Source of the DNA: Acidimicrobiia bacterium | Lineage (GTDB): Bacteria; Actinomycetota; Acidimicrobiia; Acidimicrobiales; AC-14 | DNA: 34,338 bases | NCBI GenBank assembly: GCA_023265025.1 | Contig: JAHFUP010000057.1 | Location: forward strand, 1 to 34,338 | Direction: 5' to 3' | In this document: positions 516 to 32,567 of the stretch, piece by piece | Position numbering within the stretch: the first letter of the stretch is position 1 | Layout: every line of letters begins with the position of its first letter | Program-made: the position numbers and the translations under genes | The notes under the pieces: model-generated | The model's input: the letters and a program-made list of their open reading frames with translations, nothing else | What the model was told of the DNA's origin: nothing | Databases searched by the model: none

Positions 516-2883
<2,368 letters not shown>

Positions 2884-26501: not shown

Positions 26502-28634
26502 ATGGCCGAGCCCTGGATCATCGCCGGCGACGAGCCCGTCGACGCCCCCGAGGGCGACGTCACGCTGGTGGAGGGCTCGGCCTTCTGCATCTCCGGGCGC
26601 CACGGCGACGTGTCCCCCGGCACGCCACAGGGCCTGTTCTTCCGCGACACCCGTTTCCTGTCGACGGTGGACCTGCACATCAACGGCCACCGCCCCCAAG
26701 TCCTGGCCGCGGAGCGCACCGCGCCCTTCTCGGCGACGTTCGTCCTCCGGACCCATCCAGTGACCGGTCGGGCCGACAGCACGCTCTTGATCCTCCGGTA
26801 CCGCTATGTCGGCCGCGGCATGCGGGAGGACCTGGTCGTGCGGAACTTCGGCGAGGAGCCGGCGTACTGCTCGGTCCAGCTCAGCTTCTCCGCCGACTTC
26901 GCCAACCTGTTCGCGGTCAAGGAGGGCCGGGCCCGGCCCGAGGGCAGCATCACCCTCGACACCACCCGCGAGGGGCTGGTCTTCGACTGGCGGAAGGGCG
27001 CCAGCCGGCGGGGGCTGCGGATCAGCTCCACCGCGCCGGCGCAGTTCGTGTCGAACACCGCGGCGTGGGAGACGGTGGTGCCCGCCCGGGGCAGTTGGAG
27101 CACGTGCCTGCAGTTCACGCCGATCATCGACGGCGACGAGATCGAGCCCCGGTACCTCTGCGGCCAGCCCGTCGAGCTCTCGACCCCCCACCAGCGCCTC
27201 GACCGGTGGCGCCAGGCTCTGCCGGCGGTGGAGACCGACTTCGACCCGTTCCACCAGGCGGTCACCAAGGGCGCCGAGGACCTGGGCGCCCTGCGCATCT
27301 TCGACCCCGACTACCCCGAGCGCGCCGTGCTCGCCGCCGGCGCCCCGTGGTTCATGACCCTGTTCGGCCGCGACTCGCTGCTGACGTCGTGGATGGCGCT
27401 CATCGTCGACCCGACGCTCGCCCAGAACGTCCTGCAGACTCTCGCCCGGTTCCAGGGCACCAAGGTCGACCCGATCAACGACGAGGAGCCGGGCCGCATC
27501 CTCCACGAGATGCGCTTCGGCGAGGCGTCGTCGCTCTCCCTCGGGGGTGGCACCGTCTACTACGGGACGGCCGACGCCACGCCGCTCTTCGTCATGCTGC
27601 TCGGGGAGCTCCGCCGCTGGGGCCTGGCGCCCGACGTCGTCGACAGCCTGCTGCCGGCGGCCGACCGGGCCCTGGCGTGGATCGAGAACTACGGCGACCG
27701 TGACGGCGACGGCTACGTGGAGTACCAGCGGTCCTCCGACAAGGGCCTCGCCAACCAGGGTTGGAAGGACTCCTGGGACGCCATCCGCTTCGCCGACGGC
27801 CGCCTGGCCCGGGCGCCGATCGCCCTCTGCGAGGTGCAGGGCTACGTCTACGGTGCCTACCTGGCCCGGGCCCACTTCGCCGACGAGCTGGGCGATGACG
27901 CGACGGGCGCCCGCTACCGGGCCAAGGCCGGGGCCCTGAAGACCGCCTTCAACCGCGACTTTTGGCTGGAGGACCGGGGCTGGTTCGCTATGGGCCTCGA
28001 CGCCGGCAAGACGCCCATTGACGCCCTCGGCTCCAACATCGGCCACTGCCTGTGGACCGGCATCGTCGACGAGGACAAGGCCCGGGCCGTGGCCGACCGC
28101 CTGCTCTCACCCGAGATGTTCAGCGGCTGGGGCATCCGGACCCTGAGCTCGGCCATGACCGGCTACAACCCCGTCAGCTACCACGTCGGCTCGGTGTGGC
28201 CCCACGACAACGCCATCATCGCCGCCGGCCTGACCCGGTACGGGTTCGTGGACGAGGCCCACCGGGTGATCATGGGCCTGCTCGACGCGGCCACCCACTT
28301 CGGGGGCCGCCTCCCGGAGCTGTTCGGCGGCCTCGGGCGCGACGAGGTGCCGTTTCCCGTCAGCTACCCGTCGTCGTGCTCGCCCCAGGCGTGGGCGGCG
28401 GCGTCGCCCCTGCTGTTCCTGCGCAGCATCCTGCGCCTCGACCCGTGGGTGCCCCACGGCAAGGTATGGATCGACCCCGCGCTGCCGCCCCGCATCGGCC
28501 GCCTCCGCGTCGACCGCATCCCCCTCGCCGGCCGGCGGGTCACCGTCGTGGTCGACCGCCACGGCATGGTCGCCGAGGGCATGGGCGCCGACATCCAGAT
28601 GGTCCGCTCCCCCCGGGACCCCCTGACGGCCTGA
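26502..28634 (+). CDS. Glycogen-debranching-type amylo-alpha-1,6-glucosidase
   Basis: A 710-residue cytosolic protein. The N-terminal half is a beta-rich domain (about 15-240, with GLFFRDTRFLSTVDLHINGH) seen in bacterial debranching-enzyme-like proteins, and the C-terminal half is an (alpha/alpha)6-barrel. Barrel motifs are APWFMTLFGRDSLLTSW (about 286-302, likely acidic catalytic residue), NQGWKDSWDAI, EVQGYVYGAYL, GSNIGHCLWTGIV and YHVGSVWPHDNAIIAAGL. Such enzymes cleave alpha-1,6 branches of glycogen or related glucans; some act on other alpha-glucosides, so glycogen as substrate is an inference. No other glycogen gene is in the window. It is followed by the palindrome at 28641-28690. Confidence 0.85.
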   Translation: MAEPWIIAGDEPVDAPEGDVTLVEGSAFCISGRHGDVSPGTPQGLFFRDTRFLSTVDLHINGHRPQVLAAERTAPFSATFVLRTHPVTGRADSTLLILRYRYVGRGMREDLVVRNFGEEPAYCSVQLSFSADFANLFAVKEGRARPEGSITLDTTREGLVFDWRKGASRRGLRISSTAPAQFVSNTAAWETVVPARGSWSTCLQFTPIIDGDEIEPRYLCGQPVELSTPHQRLDRWRQALPAVETDFDPFHQAVTKGAEDLGALRIFDPDYPERAVLAAGAPWFMTLFGRDSLLTSWMALIVDPTLAQNVLQTLARFQGTKVDPINDEEPGRILHEMRFGEASSLSLGGGTVYYGTADATPLFVMLLGELRRWGLAPDVVDSLLPAADRALAWIENYGDRDGDGYVEYQRSSDKGLANQGWKDSWDAIRFADGRLARAPIALCEVQGYVYGAYLARAHFADELGDDATGARYRAKAGALKTAFNRDFWLEDRGWFAMGLDAGKTPIDALGSNIGHCLWTGIVDEDKARAVADRLLSPEMFSGWGIRTLSSAMTGYNPVSYHVGSVWPHDNAIIAAGLTRYGFVDEAHRVIMGLLDAATHFGGRLPELFGGLGRDEVPFPVSYPSSCSPQAWAAASPLLFLRSILRLDPWVPHGKVWIDPALPPRIGRLRVDRIPLAGRRVTVVVDRHGMVAEGMGADIQMVRSPRDPLTA

Positions 28635-28640
28635 CCCCAC

Positions 28641-28690
28641 CGTTTTGGCTGCACTGACGTGCCTATAGACCCGTCAGTGCAGCCAAATCG
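28641..28690. repeat. Palindromic repeat, copy 2, between convergent genes
   Basis: A 16-bp stem (28644-28659 with 28672-28687) encloses a 12-nt loop, with two more outer pairs past one mismatch. Over the central 42 nt it differs from the 460-501 copy at only four places, and the loop replaces the inner paired part of that copy. It starts 6 bp after the glucosidase stop and ends 9 bp before the stop of the convergent MBL gene, the position of a bidirectional terminator. Confidence 0.9.
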
Positions 28691-28699
28691 AGTGGGGGG

Positions 28700-29305
28700 C
28701 TACCAGCCCCGGTCGATCCACTCCTGGAGGTGGGGGCGCTCGGTGCCGATGGTGGTCTGGTCGCCGTGGCCGGGCAGGACGATCGTCTCGTCGGGCAGGG
28801 TGAAGAGCCGCTGCTGGAGAGACCGGATGATCGTGGCGAAGTGGACCGGGTTGCGGCGGGTGTTGCCTGGCCCGCCGGGAAAGAGCGTGTCGCCCGAGAA
28901 CAGCACCGGAGAGCCCTCGATGGTGAAACAGGTCGAGCCCGCCGTGTGCCCCGGCGTGTGCAGGGCGTGGAGGCGGAGGCGGCCGACCTCGATGATTTCG
29001 TCGTCGGCGATCTCGAAGTCGTGCGCCGGCAGCATGTGGGCGTCGCCCTCGGCCACCCCCACCCGGTGGCCGGCGGCCCGGACCGCCGGCACCGCCTGGA
29101 TGTGGTCGCCGTGGCCGTGGGTGGTCAGCACGTCGCCGACCGCCAGCTCATCGCACAGCGGGAGGAGCACCTGCGGCTCGTCGGCGGCGTCGACCATCAC
29201 CGCCTCCCCGGTCTCGACACAACGGACGAAGTAGACGTTGTTCACCATCGGCCCGACGACGACCTTGGTGATCTGGACCTGGGCGTCTTCGTAGTGCACC
29301 GGCAT
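28700..29305 (-). CDS. MBL-fold metallo-hydrolase (glyoxalase II-like)
   Basis: A 201-residue metallo-beta-lactamase-fold hydrolase with the binuclear metal site THGHGDH (62-68: His63, His65, Asp67, His68), HTPGHT (His120), FSGDTLF (Asp139) and LPGHGD (His180). The fold and length fit the YcbL/glyoxalase-II-like group that hydrolyses thioesters or related compounds, but the substrate is not known. The ATG at 29305 lies 7 nt behind a CATACT box. The gene is divergent from an acyl-CoA dehydrogenase with an 18-bp gap, so their -10 regions overlap, and ends at the palindrome 28641-28690. Confidence 0.88.
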   Translation of the reverse strand: MPVHYEDAQVQITKVVVGPMVNNVYFVRCVETGEAVMVDAADEPQVLLPLCDELAVGDVLTTHGHGDHIQAVPAVRAAGHRVGVAEGDAHMLPAHDFEIADDEIIEVGRLRLHALHTPGHTAGSTCFTIEGSPVLFSGDTLFPGGPGNTRRNPVHFATIIRSLQQRLFTLPDETIVLPGHGDQTTIGTERPHLQEWIDRGW

Positions 29306-29323
29306 GGACGCGAGTATGCCCCG

Positions 29324-30385
29324 GTGACGACCGATCTCGACGACCCGCTGCGCGCCCGGGTCCGCGACCTCCTGGCCGAGGTGTCGCCGCCGGCGGAGGT
29401 CCGACGGCTCATGGAAGACGGGCGGGGGCACGACCTCGACGTCTGGCTGCGCATGGCCGATGACCACGAACTGCACGGCCTCCACCTGCCGGCGGAGGTC
29501 GGCGGCGCCGGCCTGGGGTGGGTGGAGCAGGCGGTGGTGCTGGAGGAGACCGGCCGGGTGCTGCTGTGCGCCCCGTACCTGGCGACGGTCACCGCCGCGC
29601 CGTTCCTGCCCCCCGAGCACCAGGCCGCGGTCGCCGGCGGCCTCTGCATCGCCACGCTGGCCGTGGCCGAGGCGTCGGGCCGGTGGGACGCCGCCGGCGT
29701 GCAGACCCGGGCGGTGCAGTCGCCGACCGGTGGGTGGCGGCTCGACGGCGAGAAGTCCTACGTGGTGGACGGGGCCGCGGCCGACGTCTTGGTGGTCGCC
29801 GCCCGGCCGGACGGAGCCGACGTCGGCCTTTTCCTCGTCGACGCCGGCGCCCCCGGCCTCGACCAGGGCCCGCTGGCGACGATCGACCAGACCCGTCGGC
29901 AGGCCCGCATCACGCTCGCAGCCACGCCGGCCCGCCAGCTCGCCGGCTCGCTCGACGACGCCATGGCCCTGTCGGCCGTCGCCCTCGCCGCCGAGCAGGT
30001 GGGCGGGGCGGGGCGCGCCCTGGAGATGGCGGTGGAGCACGCCGGCCGGCGGGTGCAGTTCGGTCGGGCCATCGGCAGCTTCCAGGCCGTCAAGCACCTG
30101 TGCGCCGAGATGCTGCTCGACCTGGAGTCGGCCCGCGGTGCCGCATCCCACGCCGCCGCCAGCGTCGGGTGCGACGAGTTGCCCGACGCGGCCGCGGTCG
30201 CCAAGTCGTGCTGCTCGGAGATGTACGTGCGAGTCGCCACCGACAGCCTCCACGTCCACGGGGGGCTCGGCTTCACCTGGGAGCACGACGCGCACCTGTA
30301 CTTCAAGCGGGCCCGGTCGTCGCGGCTCCTCTTCGGCGACCCCCGGTATCACCGCGAGAAACTGGCTCGGATCCTCGGCTTGTAG
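29324..30385 (+). CDS. Acyl-CoA dehydrogenase
   Basis: FAD-dependent enzyme that oxidises an acyl-CoA to an enoyl-CoA. The 353-residue protein has the N-terminal helical domain with LPAEVGGAGLGWVEQAVVLEE in order, the middle beta domain (about 106-190), and the C-terminal helical domain with VQFGRAIGSFQAVKHLCAEM and LHVHGGLGFTWEHDAHLYFKRA. The shortened form and the GFTWEHD wording resemble the small FadE-type subunits of actinobacteria that pair with a second subunit for steroid or other side-chain degradation. No partner is adjacent, so it may act alone or with a distant gene. GTG at 29324 is the start; the frame is open upstream through the MBL gene only as shadow. Confidence 0.85.
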   Translation: MTTDLDDPLRARVRDLLAEVSPPAEVRRLMEDGRGHDLDVWLRMADDHELHGLHLPAEVGGAGLGWVEQAVVLEETGRVLLCAPYLATVTAAPFLPPEHQAAVAGGLCIATLAVAEASGRWDAAGVQTRAVQSPTGGWRLDGEKSYVVDGAAADVLVVAARPDGADVGLFLVDAGAPGLDQGPLATIDQTRRQARITLAATPARQLAGSLDDAMALSAVALAAEQVGGAGRALEMAVEHAGRRVQFGRAIGSFQAVKHLCAEMLLDLESARGAASHAAASVGCDELPDAAAVAKSCCSEMYVRVATDSLHVHGGLGFTWEHDAHLYFKRARSSRLLFGDPRYHREKLARILGL

Positions 30386-30837: not shown

Positions 30838-30885
30838 AAACTGCCTCGATTCACGACTTCACCTGTGATTCAATTGGGCTACCGA

Positions 30886-30902
30886 AGAAAGGAGGTGGTC
30901 CA
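30886..30902 (+). promoter_or_regulatory. Extreme Shine-Dalgarno / 16S rRNA 3'-tail complement
   Basis: AGAAAGGAGGTGGTCCA is the full complement of the usual 16S 3' tail (UGGAUCACCUCCUUUCU) apart from one A-to-G change that still allows a G-U pair, giving 17 continuous pairs. It lies 8 nt before a CTG codon. Confidence 0.6.
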
Positions 30903-30903
30903 C

Positions 30904-30948
30904 CTGAACGAATGTAGTTTTGGGACCTCGGAGGTGGCTGCCCGCTAA
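30904..30948 (+). CDS. Putative 14-residue peptide with CTG start
   Basis: Downstream of the very strong ribosome-binding site an open frame reads LNECSFGTSEVAAR then TAA. The CTG is at ideal spacing from GGAGG; a GTG at 30895 would add MVH but would lie inside that site. The stop codon lies in the loop of the hairpin 30936-30957. It may be a leader peptide or small protein. Confidence 0.35.
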   Translation: MNECSFGTSEVAAR

Positions 30949-31070
30949 CTGGCAGCTGGACCGGGTAGGCGGAATTCCCGCCGCCACCGCTCGGAGGATA
31001 CGTCCGGGAATTGGTCCCTCCTGGTGCAGTCCGTCTCCCCCAAGTTTTCCTTTCCAGCATTCGAAGCAAG

Positions 31071-31126: not shown

Positions 31127-31882
31127 GTGCAGTGTGAGATCGAGTCGGACGGCCTTCGCCTGTCCGGGTACCTGGCCCGGCCGGCGACGCGGGCCGCGGC
31201 ATCTGTCCCCGGCCTCGTGCTGTGCCACGGCTTCCCCGCCGGCCCCGGCGGCGCGGCCACGTCAGGGCAGACCTACCCCGAGCTCGCCGAACGGCTGGTG
31301 GCCGACACCGGCTGGGTCGTCCTCGCCTTCAACTTCCGGGGCACGGGCATGTCCGAGGGCGACTTCTCCCTCGGCGGCTGGCTCGACGACCTCCGGGCCG
31401 CCATCGACCACCTCCTCGCCGTCGAGGGCGTCTCTGAGGTCTGGGTCGCCGGCTCTGGCACGGGCGGTTCGCTGGCCCTGTGCGAGGCCGGCGAGGACGA
31501 ACGCGTCCGCGGGGTGGCCACCATGTCGGCCCGGGCCGACTTCGGCGACTGGGCGTCGGACCCCGAGGCCTTCCTCGGCCACGCCCGGAACATCGGCGTC
31601 ATCGGCAACCTCGACTTCCCCTCCGACTTCGCGGCCTGGAGCCGCGAGCTCCGTGAGATACGGCCGACGGCGCTCATCGCCAAGATCCCGCCCCGGTCCG
31701 TCCTGATCGTGCACGGTGCCGACGACGACATCGTCCCCCTCGACGACGCCCGGATCCTGGCTGACGCCGCCGGCGACGCCGTCGAGCTGCGGGTCCTCTC
31801 CGAGGCCGGCCACCGCCTCCGCCACGACCCCCGCGCCGTCGCCCTCCTCCTGGGCTGGATGGAGCGCCAGGCCGGCGCCTGA
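31127..31882 (+). CDS. Alpha/beta hydrolase-fold protein lacking the usual nucleophile
   Basis: A 251-residue single-domain alpha/beta hydrolase-fold protein with LVLCHGFPAGPGG (oxyanion loop, 30-42), NFRGTGMSEGDF (69-80), the nucleophile-elbow region WVAGSGTGGSLAL (106-118), VLIVHGADDDIVP (192-204, acid Asp) and SEAGHRL (His229). At the elbow the pattern G-x-S-x-G-G reads G-S-G-T-G-G, so Gly111 stands where the catalytic Ser should be; Ser110 lies one place too early. It may be inactive, use Ser110 with a shifted loop, or have a non-hydrolytic role. I chose GTG 31127 (GAGGTGAGG upstream); GTG 31118 is possible. The structured region 30838-31126 lies directly upstream and may control it. Confidence 0.82.
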   Translation: MQCEIESDGLRLSGYLARPATRAAASVPGLVLCHGFPAGPGGAATSGQTYPELAERLVADTGWVVLAFNFRGTGMSEGDFSLGGWLDDLRAAIDHLLAVEGVSEVWVAGSGTGGSLALCEAGEDERVRGVATMSARADFGDWASDPEAFLGHARNIGVIGNLDFPSDFAAWSRELREIRPTALIAKIPPRSVLIVHGADDDIVPLDDARILADAAGDAVELRVLSEAGHRLRHDPRAVALLLGWMERQAGA

Positions 31883-31888
31883 CCGCTC

Positions 31889-31936
31889 GAACTGGCTGCA
31901 GTTGACCGCGTCGGCGCGGCCAATTGCAGCCAGTTC
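31889..31936. repeat. Palindromic repeat, variant copy 3, between convergent genes
   Basis: A 22-position stem (31889-31910 with 31915-31936) with one mismatch and one G-T pair and a 4-nt TCGG loop. The outer arms (ACTGGCTGCA / TGCAGCCAGT) match copy 1 while the inner arms differ in both strands so that pairing is kept. The thiE stop codon lies within it, and the hydrolase stop is 7 bp before it. Confidence 0.88.
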
Positions 31937-32567
31937 AGCCGAGGGGGACGGCGTCGATAGCGGCTCGCAACGCCCGGGCGGCGGCTTCCGGGTTCGACGA
32001 CTCGGTCAGCCAGCGGACAACCACGAACCGGCGGGCGCCGGCGTCGAGCATCTCCCCAACCGTTGCCGGCGTCACGCCGCCGGTCACGAACCACGGCCGG
32101 GTGGTGGTCCTGGCCGCGTAGCGCAGGTAGTCGAGGCCGGTGCCGGGGCGGCCGGGCTTGGTCGGCGTCGGAGCGACCGGGCCGACGGAGAGGTAATCGG
32201 CGGGCTCCGAAGCCGACGCATCCAGCTCCGCTGGCGCGTGGGTCGAGAACCCGACGATGGCGTCCGGCCCCAGGATGCGGCGGGCCAGGCCGGGAGGGGC
32301 GTCGTCCTGGCCGACGTGGACGCCGGCGGCCTCGCACTCCAGCGCCAGGTCCGGACGGTCGTTGAGGACGAACGGCACGCCGTGGTCGGCGCAGACCTCG
32401 GCCGCCAGCCGGGCCCGGGCCAGCAGCGGCCGGGCGTCGAGCTGCTTGTCGCGGAGCTGGACCACGTCGACGCCGCCGGCGATGCAGGCGGCCAGGAACG
32501 ACGCCAGGTCGGGACGGTCGGCGGTGCAGAGGTACAGCCGGCGGTCGCCGAGAGGCCCGGGACTCAC
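31935..32567 (-). CDS. thiE: Thiamine-phosphate synthase
   Basis: Joins the pyrimidine (HMP-PP) and thiazole (HET-P) halves to thiamine phosphate in the cytosol. The 210-residue TIM-barrel protein has LYLCT, VVQLRDKQ (35-42), VLND (67-70), HVGQDD (84-89), VGFSTHA (105-111) and the phosphate-binding SVGPVAPTPTK (127-137), in the family order. The last gene of the HhH-GPD-thiS-thiE operon, its GTG start overlaps the thiS stop as GTGA (32564-32567). thiG and thiO are not in the window. The stop codon is part of palindrome copy 3. Confidence 0.93.
   Translation of the reverse strand: MSPGPLGDRRLYLCTADRPDLASFLAACIAGGVDVVQLRDKQLDARPLLARARLAAEVCADHGVPFVLNDRPDLALECEAAGVHVGQDDAPPGLARRILGPDAIVGFSTHAPAELDASASEPADYLSVGPVAPTPTKPGRPGTGLDYLRYAARTTTRPWFVTGGVTPATVGEMLDAGARRFVVVRWLTESSNPEAAARALRAAIDAVPLG

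Follow-up and report, generated by a model that had tools for sequence, protein, structure and literature searches.

The classic enterobacterial REP case is that of malE-malF. Enterobacterial REPs have been described as protecting mRNA from exonucleases and as stalling ribosomes near the stop codon (PMC12306157). GTAG-tagged REPs are short extragenic palindromes, high in copy number, that follow coding regions and lie mostly between convergent or unidirectional genes (PMC3733652). The described REP superfamilies bear a GTAG or a CGTC foot, and those with a GTAG foot are associated with RAYT enzymes (PMC3733652, PMC8266576). These enzymes are thought to move them, yet tagged families without a dedicated transposase leave the spread of such palindromes unexplained (PMC3733652). 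CGTC-tagged REPs, mostly from alpha-proteobacteria and including Neisseria dRS3 and Rickettsia RPE, are dispersed apparently without a dedicated transposase (PMC3733652). DNA uptake sequences, in turn, can form terminator hairpins (PMC2267715).

The window analysed here, a stretch of 34,338 nucleotides from an Acidimicrobiia bacterium, contains three copies of a palindrome. They belong to a lineage-specific and very probably mobile family of dispersed palindromes at gene 3' ends. A literature search, with coverage that excluded most subscription journals, turned up no earlier account of the family for Acidimicrobiia. Palindromes of another lineage, Acidimicrobium ferrooxidans, have been counted with RepRanger (PMC12306157). 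The copies, their neighbouring genes and their scores with covariance model R1 are as follows.

456-505, no strand assigned: copy 1, type A palindrome of 50 nt (77.4 bits)
516-1811, minus strand: S-adenosylhomocysteine hydrolase gene, upstream of copy 1 (Pfam PF05221/PF00670)
26502-28634, plus strand: glycogen-debranching-type gene (GDE_N_bis, Pfam PF14742), ending before copy 2
28641-28690, no strand assigned: copy 2, type A (74.1 bits), between convergent genes; both sister genomes are empty here
28700-29300 (start approximate), minus strand: metallo-beta-lactamase-fold gene (Pfam PF00753), its end adjoining copy 2
31127-31882, plus strand: alpha/beta-hydrolase gene (Pfam PF12146/PF00561), ending before copy 3
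31888-31937, no strand assigned: copy 3, type B with the other inner stem (34.6 bits), between convergent genes
31935-32567, minus strand: thiamine-monophosphate-synthase-type gene (Pfam PF02581), ending at copy 3

Like the GTAG REPs, the family is short, high in copy number, mostly extragenic and placed at gene 3' ends; in contrast to them, its ends bear GTAG no more often than chance, the three genomes searched yielded no PF01797 gene, and the stem is longer and symmetric (about 24 bp). With the CGTC REPs it shares dispersed palindromes and no apparent dedicated transposase. However, CGTC REPs have stems of 8-9 bp, a CGTC foot and mostly a head-to-head dimeric arrangement, whereas here the stem is 24 bp, the units are mostly single and CGTC is at chance level at the ends (but present inside type A stems). 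A G+C-rich hairpin directly after the stop codon, common between convergent genes, is also what an intrinsic (Rho-independent) terminator looks like, but the present hairpins have no T-run of 4 or more at their ends, are conserved in sequence and are missing at many orthologous sites. Finally, gene ends that carry a lineage-specific word as inverted pairs recall DNA uptake sequences. Here, however, the exact arms are, with a single exception, parts of palindromes and not solitary words; an uptake-signal reading was dropped for this reason.

Copy 2 has the sequence CGTTTTGGCTGCACTGACGTGCCTATAGACCCGTCAGTGCAGCCAAATCG. Positions 28645-28686 are identical to 460-501 at 38 of 42 positions, exactly as the initial annotation had it, and the match amounts to 57 of 66 over a longer stretch. 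The placement that it gave for both copies, just past a stop codon, is likewise correct: copy 1 lies 10 nt beyond the stop of the minus-strand S-adenosylhomocysteine hydrolase gene, and copy 2 begins 6 nt past the TGA (28632-28634) of the glycogen-debranching-type gene and ends 9 nt short of the stop codon (28700) of the convergent metallo-beta-lactamase-fold gene. The PF00753 match of the latter covers residues 367-529 of a minus-strand open reading frame spanning 28700-30352; the genes at the same place in the two sister genomes are 606 nt long. Copy 3, overlooked in that annotation, is divergent and was found by the covariance model, built from 25 copies; the three bases at its right end (31935-31937) form the stop codon of the ThiE-type gene on the minus strand. 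Allowing up to 3 mismatches, the 17-nt arm matches the window 5 times against 0.27 expected, a number reached by none of 100 shuffles; one of these matches (31256-31272, 3 mismatches) is not part of the three palindromes. As the 13-nt arm core also has 40 exact occurrences in the whole genome and none in the reversed control, a chance origin of the arm repeats is excluded. Elsewhere in the window, positions 30881-31051 of the plus strand, between two called genes, match the actinobacterial sRNA Ms_IGR-5 (RF02471) with 46.1 bits, the Rfam cut-off being 45.

Genome-wide, the suspected dispersed family turned out to be real and far larger than two copies. In what follows, G000 denotes the source genome, and G001 and G002 those of two sister species of the same genus. 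Model R1 was seeded with 25 of 27 sites, excluding one without a right arm and one with an insertion. With it, 78 sites were mapped over 1.10 Mb of G000 DNA (84 sources, a non-random sample), after exclusion of small loci duplicating larger ones and of two copies at contig ends regarded as duplicates: C48 repeats C44, as the sequence confirms, and C72 was equated with C106 on the basis of identical score and position at a contig end only. Searched with an exact pattern of the two 8-nt arms, G000 has 65 palindromes, or 63 once two contig-end pairs are removed as duplicates. Since this pattern fits 61 of the 78 mapped sites, the total comes to about 80 copies (about 81). A figure of about 171, extrapolated from 26 sites in 830 kb of 41 large stretches, was rejected because the contigs of those stretches had been picked for carrying copies.

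The conserved element is 50 nt long, within an inserted unit of about 62-80 nt, and consists of a stem of about 24 bp closed by a 4-nt loop. The copies fall into subfamilies with common outer arms (CGAWYTGGCTGCA...TGCAGCCARWTCG) and with inner stems that differ yet still pair. A crude sorting by inner stem gives 43 copies of type A (CTGACGTGCC or relatives) and 35 of type B (GTTGGCCGCG). Common to the copies are the outer arms TGGCTGCA/TGCAGCCA, with ends CGAWY/RWTCG, and further out a looser C-rich/G-rich flank. Most are single units, with two close pairs among the 78 sites. Alignment A4 contains 72 of the 78 sites, six with indels or weak matches being excluded. Bases pair in 87.5% of cells, compared with 78.1% after shuffling and 22-36% with slid partners. 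Shuffles are exceeded only slightly when the 25 seed copies are taken by themselves, so much of the pairing signal comes from few subfamilies, and the covariation stems largely from these and hence from few independent events. The median predicted RNA folding energy is -37.0 kcal/mol, against -14.9 for mononucleotide shuffles. The outer arms are conserved beyond what pairing alone requires, and their dyad symmetry is near-perfect. An Rfam search of the elements gave no match, nor did a search of plasmid and phage collections with the type A consensus; a single viral-contig match was rejected, its interior not being palindromic.

The family had also been supposed to be specific to its lineage, which is borne out within the limits of the search. 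Model matches were found in 3 of 41 relatives, all of one Acidimicrobiia genus, with about 80 copies in G000, at least 16 in G001 and at least 2 (perhaps 3) in G002. Across the order, 5 of 298 genomes have model matches; the two additional ones, G192 and G251, match weakly (34-37 bits), and their palindromes are clearly different in sequence from the family (G192) or partly similar to it (G251). Weak members may have escaped both searches, which applied strict filters and scored 138 and 19 candidates per genome listed. Seven of 60 relatives contain the exact two-arm pattern, G000 65 times, G001 11, G002 3 and four others once or twice each. One of the G002 matches (C186) has an interior that is not palindromic, and among the matches listed those of the four other genomes are also non-palindromic inside, except possibly one in G050. 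Twelve of 19 stretches examined come from the two sister MAGs, and two (L208 and L210) could be distant members; the other five were discarded because they look like chance or, in L200, like an unrelated hairpin. By these sequence matches, the family does not appear convincingly present outside the three species.

The preference for gene 3' ends, read initially from two copies, is a property of the family. A stop codon lies within 30 nt of an arm at 67 of 74 resolved sites, compared with 10.3% under random intergenic placement, and at 6 of these 67 the called stop is inside the arm. The median stop-to-arm distance is 11.5 nt (68 sites having a stop on either side). Four of the 78 sites are outside these statistics, three at contig edges and one within a called gene; with only that one inside a gene, the family is mostly extragenic. 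According to a codon-usage gene caller, the neighbouring genes are convergent at 33 of the 74 sites, in tandem at 35 and divergent at 6, the divergent class depending on the same caller, which misplaced at least one neighbour (window 28700), so that the site of copy 2 was called tandem although it is convergent by Pfam. Counted over all junctions of the 41 large stretches, an element is present at 13 of 118 convergent, 10 of 494 tandem and 3 of 118 divergent ones, a five-fold enrichment at convergent gene pairs. Where non-divergent gaps are at least 100 nt wide (a test that omitted the miscalled window site), 12 of 14 elements are still within 25 nt of a stop codon, against 5.55 expected (P ~1e-4). 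The placement is therefore more than tolerance of intergenic space. The asymmetric arms, inspected by eye, show no clear orientation. One copy of the family is in frame within a gene that encodes FAD_binding_2 and Succ_DH_flav_C domains, at L134:2501-2556 in G000 and likewise at L168:7168-7223 in G001, so that this copy is common to the two species; the gene is read as L-aspartate oxidase.

The three genomes are 82.4-83.0% identical in pairwise comparison over 12-13 kb of the window region, so that flanks can be aligned and orthologous sites compared. In G001, where the same family is over-represented because the stretches were chosen around its own copies, 21 resolved G000 sites correspond to a family copy in 7 cases, to another hairpin in 6 and to nothing in 8, two of these eight being one locus. 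In G002, the 14 resolved sites hold a family copy in 2 cases, another hairpin in 4 and nothing in 8. All these classes were assigned by eye, after dropping three spurious alignments and setting aside as unresolved three site/genome pairs with gaps of more than 200 nt. Six of the ten cases with another hairpin were confirmed by a palindrome scan, and four were judged by visual inspection and folding energy (L107 and window 31885 in G001; L095:14271 and L136:2501 in G002).

Several of the empty sites are tightly packed gene junctions. At the site of copy 2 both sisters are empty, with the called stop codons 3 nt (G001) and 4 nt (G002) apart. The copy at L095:4458 lies between two peptide-type ABC ATPase genes, which in G002 overlap by 4 nt (ATGA). 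That at L125:2501, between an Rrf2-type gene and hemD, corresponds to a 4-nt overlap in G001 and a 2-nt gap, as called, in G002, and for L125:3349, between hemD and a sulfite-reductase-type gene, the sisters have empty gaps of 34 and 57 nt. At L146:2501, between a binding-protein gene and a permease gene, G001 is empty (32 nt as called) and G002 has the family. One double site has the type B unit without the adjoining type A unit in G002, and neither unit in G001. The copies thus come and go between sister species, which is mobile-element-like behaviour.

The ATGA that is single in the sister flanks the element on both sides in G000 at L095:4458, and the same is true of CTCA (TGAG on the coding strand) at L146:2501; at L125:2501, the words at the two sides are GTGA and ATGA. 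Doubled words such as the first two are what target duplication would give. Across the 78 copies, no clear target duplication at a fixed offset was found, one 4-letter offset having 6 matches against a shuffled maximum of 5, and lengths of 2, 3 or 5 letters have no support. An outgroup search with DNA of the hemD region found the genes in 7 of 7 genomes and not the same junctions, as judged by called gene order, so outgroups gave no polarity. Gain in G000, as opposed to loss elsewhere, is suggested by the near-equal distances between the three genomes and by gene overlap as the likely older state.

We consider it probable that the element is a short, non-autonomous dispersed palindrome that multiplied in one Acidimicrobiia genus, mostly in the present species, and that copies were inserted and then kept as mRNA 3'-end hairpins. 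Insertion, and rare loss, would be the work of an enzyme other than a Y1/RAYT transposase of the kind that these assemblies would reveal. In a transcript, the hairpin behind the stop codon would act as an mRNA 3'-end element, analogous to the enterobacterial REPs: it would block 3'-5' exonucleases, uncouple or tune the downstream gene, and limit read-through between convergent genes. Selection would then retain mainly those copies for which a stop-proximal hairpin is harmless or useful. By this analogy, a role in stabilising or insulating transcripts seems likely, and a general 3'-end signal is possible. New with respect to the described systems are the taxon, the long stem without a tag, the lack of a detected RAYT gene and the empty and filled sites, which make effects testable. 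An untagged family of this kind, with natural filled and empty sites that include packed operon junctions, poses the question of what moves such palindromes, and orthologues with and without the element can be compared to learn what the hairpin does to neighbouring genes.

Ordinary native terminators, homogenised by gene conversion (concerted evolution) and not really mobile, are an unlikely alternative. They would explain why hairpins are present in all the species at several orthologous 3' ends but differ in sequence, as at window site 1, where those of G001 and G002 are unrelated, and they are compatible with both the stop-proximal spacing and the convergent bias. Gene-converted terminators would not leave the sister without a strong palindrome, as is the case at 8 of 21 sites in G001 and 8 of 14 in G002. 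Moreover, a run of at least 4 T within 15 nt is present at none of 156 ends, and several copies lie between operon genes, where a strong terminator would keep the next gene from being transcribed; both make canonical termination unlikely. The initial annotation had left the choice between a REP-like mobile family and a shared terminator or 3'-end signal. The mobile part is supported by empty orthologous sites and copy-number jumps, and the terminator part is weakened by the missing T-runs and the operon copies, so that, from the sequences compared, a REP-like mobile family appears to fit better than fixed terminators.

A true REP family, with a RAYT gene that is missing from the assembly, has diverged beyond recognition or was lost recently, is quite improbable. 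Palindromy, copy number and gene-end placement are all REP-like (PMC3733652, PMC8266576), and CGTC or GTAG words do occur, paired, within type A stems. In the 18 nt outside the arms, however, GTAG is found at 5 and CGTC at 11 of 156 ends, near the roughly 9 expected by chance for a four-letter word at even base composition, in a count confined to the ends. PF01797 (Y1/RAYT) was not matched at E 0.01 in any of the three genomes of the genus, which are 95-98% complete, while the same search was positive in 6 of 14 control genomes. Because the RAYT gene, to which the initial annotation had pointed, was sought and none was found, the name REP is valid in a loose sense and not in its canonical one. 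The family appears to sit and work like a REP; the tag and RAYT tests do not support membership in the tagged families.

There is a slim chance that the element is a palindromic MITE, mobilised in trans by a DDE-type transposase that belongs to an insertion sequence whose terminal repeats match. Its common outer ends and variable inside resemble terminal inverted repeats, and the flanking 4-nt words at L095:4458 and L146:2501, single in the sister, would fit. Against this, the 78 copies have no clear fixed-offset target duplication, and every exact 13-nt arm but one is paired with a second arm inside the same short palindrome, which gives no indication of a longer element. Among the genes between close copies, nine were compared with Pfam, as was one gene containing a copy; their matches are of metabolic, DNA-glycosylase or AbiEi/DUF559 type, and none is a transposase. 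A DNA-level binding site at gene ends (nucleoid, gyrase or supercoiling) would account for the arm conservation beyond pairing need and for the dyad symmetry but hardly seems credible, as elements spaced so tightly from stop codons suggest a role in transcripts or translation.

The family is not the only one of its kind in the genus. The other hairpins at stop-proximal sister sites, some of them dispersed, include ones with arms TGGTGACR or TTTGGTCAA and with inner CTACCG/CGGTAG. The unrelated families with arms TGGCTGCA, TGGTGACR and TTTGGTCAA appear to have ends of the form CGRWYTGG/CCARWYCG in common and to interchange at the same stop-proximal sites. Returning to the reading as an inserted, REP-like palindrome, a speculative and rather doubtful extension is that several unrelated families are substrates of one stop-codon-directed, RAYT-independent hairpin-inserting enzyme, which would leave both genes intact by doubling the NTGA at junctions where stop and start overlap. 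A second dispersed family (arms AACTGGTGACG...) was seen at L143:4738-4793, L085:13216-13271, L175:8470-8529 and L170:8560-8607, in G000 and G001, its two G000 copies sitting between convergent genes. A third family (CGAGTGWGCAATCTTGTACC...) has at least three copies in G000 (L090:1182-1226, L119:302-346 and L122:1651-1697).

Elsewhere in the order, strong intergenic palindromes number 0 and 1 per 120 kb in two other genera of the same taxonomic family and 6 in 140 kb in a third (G006), two of these being copies of a sequence of its own; the trait is therefore patchy. In G006, a long palindrome (CCTGCGCGGGAAYCGTGGGCG...) is present in two copies, L234:780-856 and L232:9567-9631. G192, of another genus of the order, has its own repeated palindrome (GGTGCACAGRCGGGCC...) at L229 (C174) and L231 (C16). 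In L088, a 42-nt terminator-like hairpin occurs three times (109-150, 504-545 and 899-940) at a spacing of 395 nt, which suggests a tandem 395-bp repeat.
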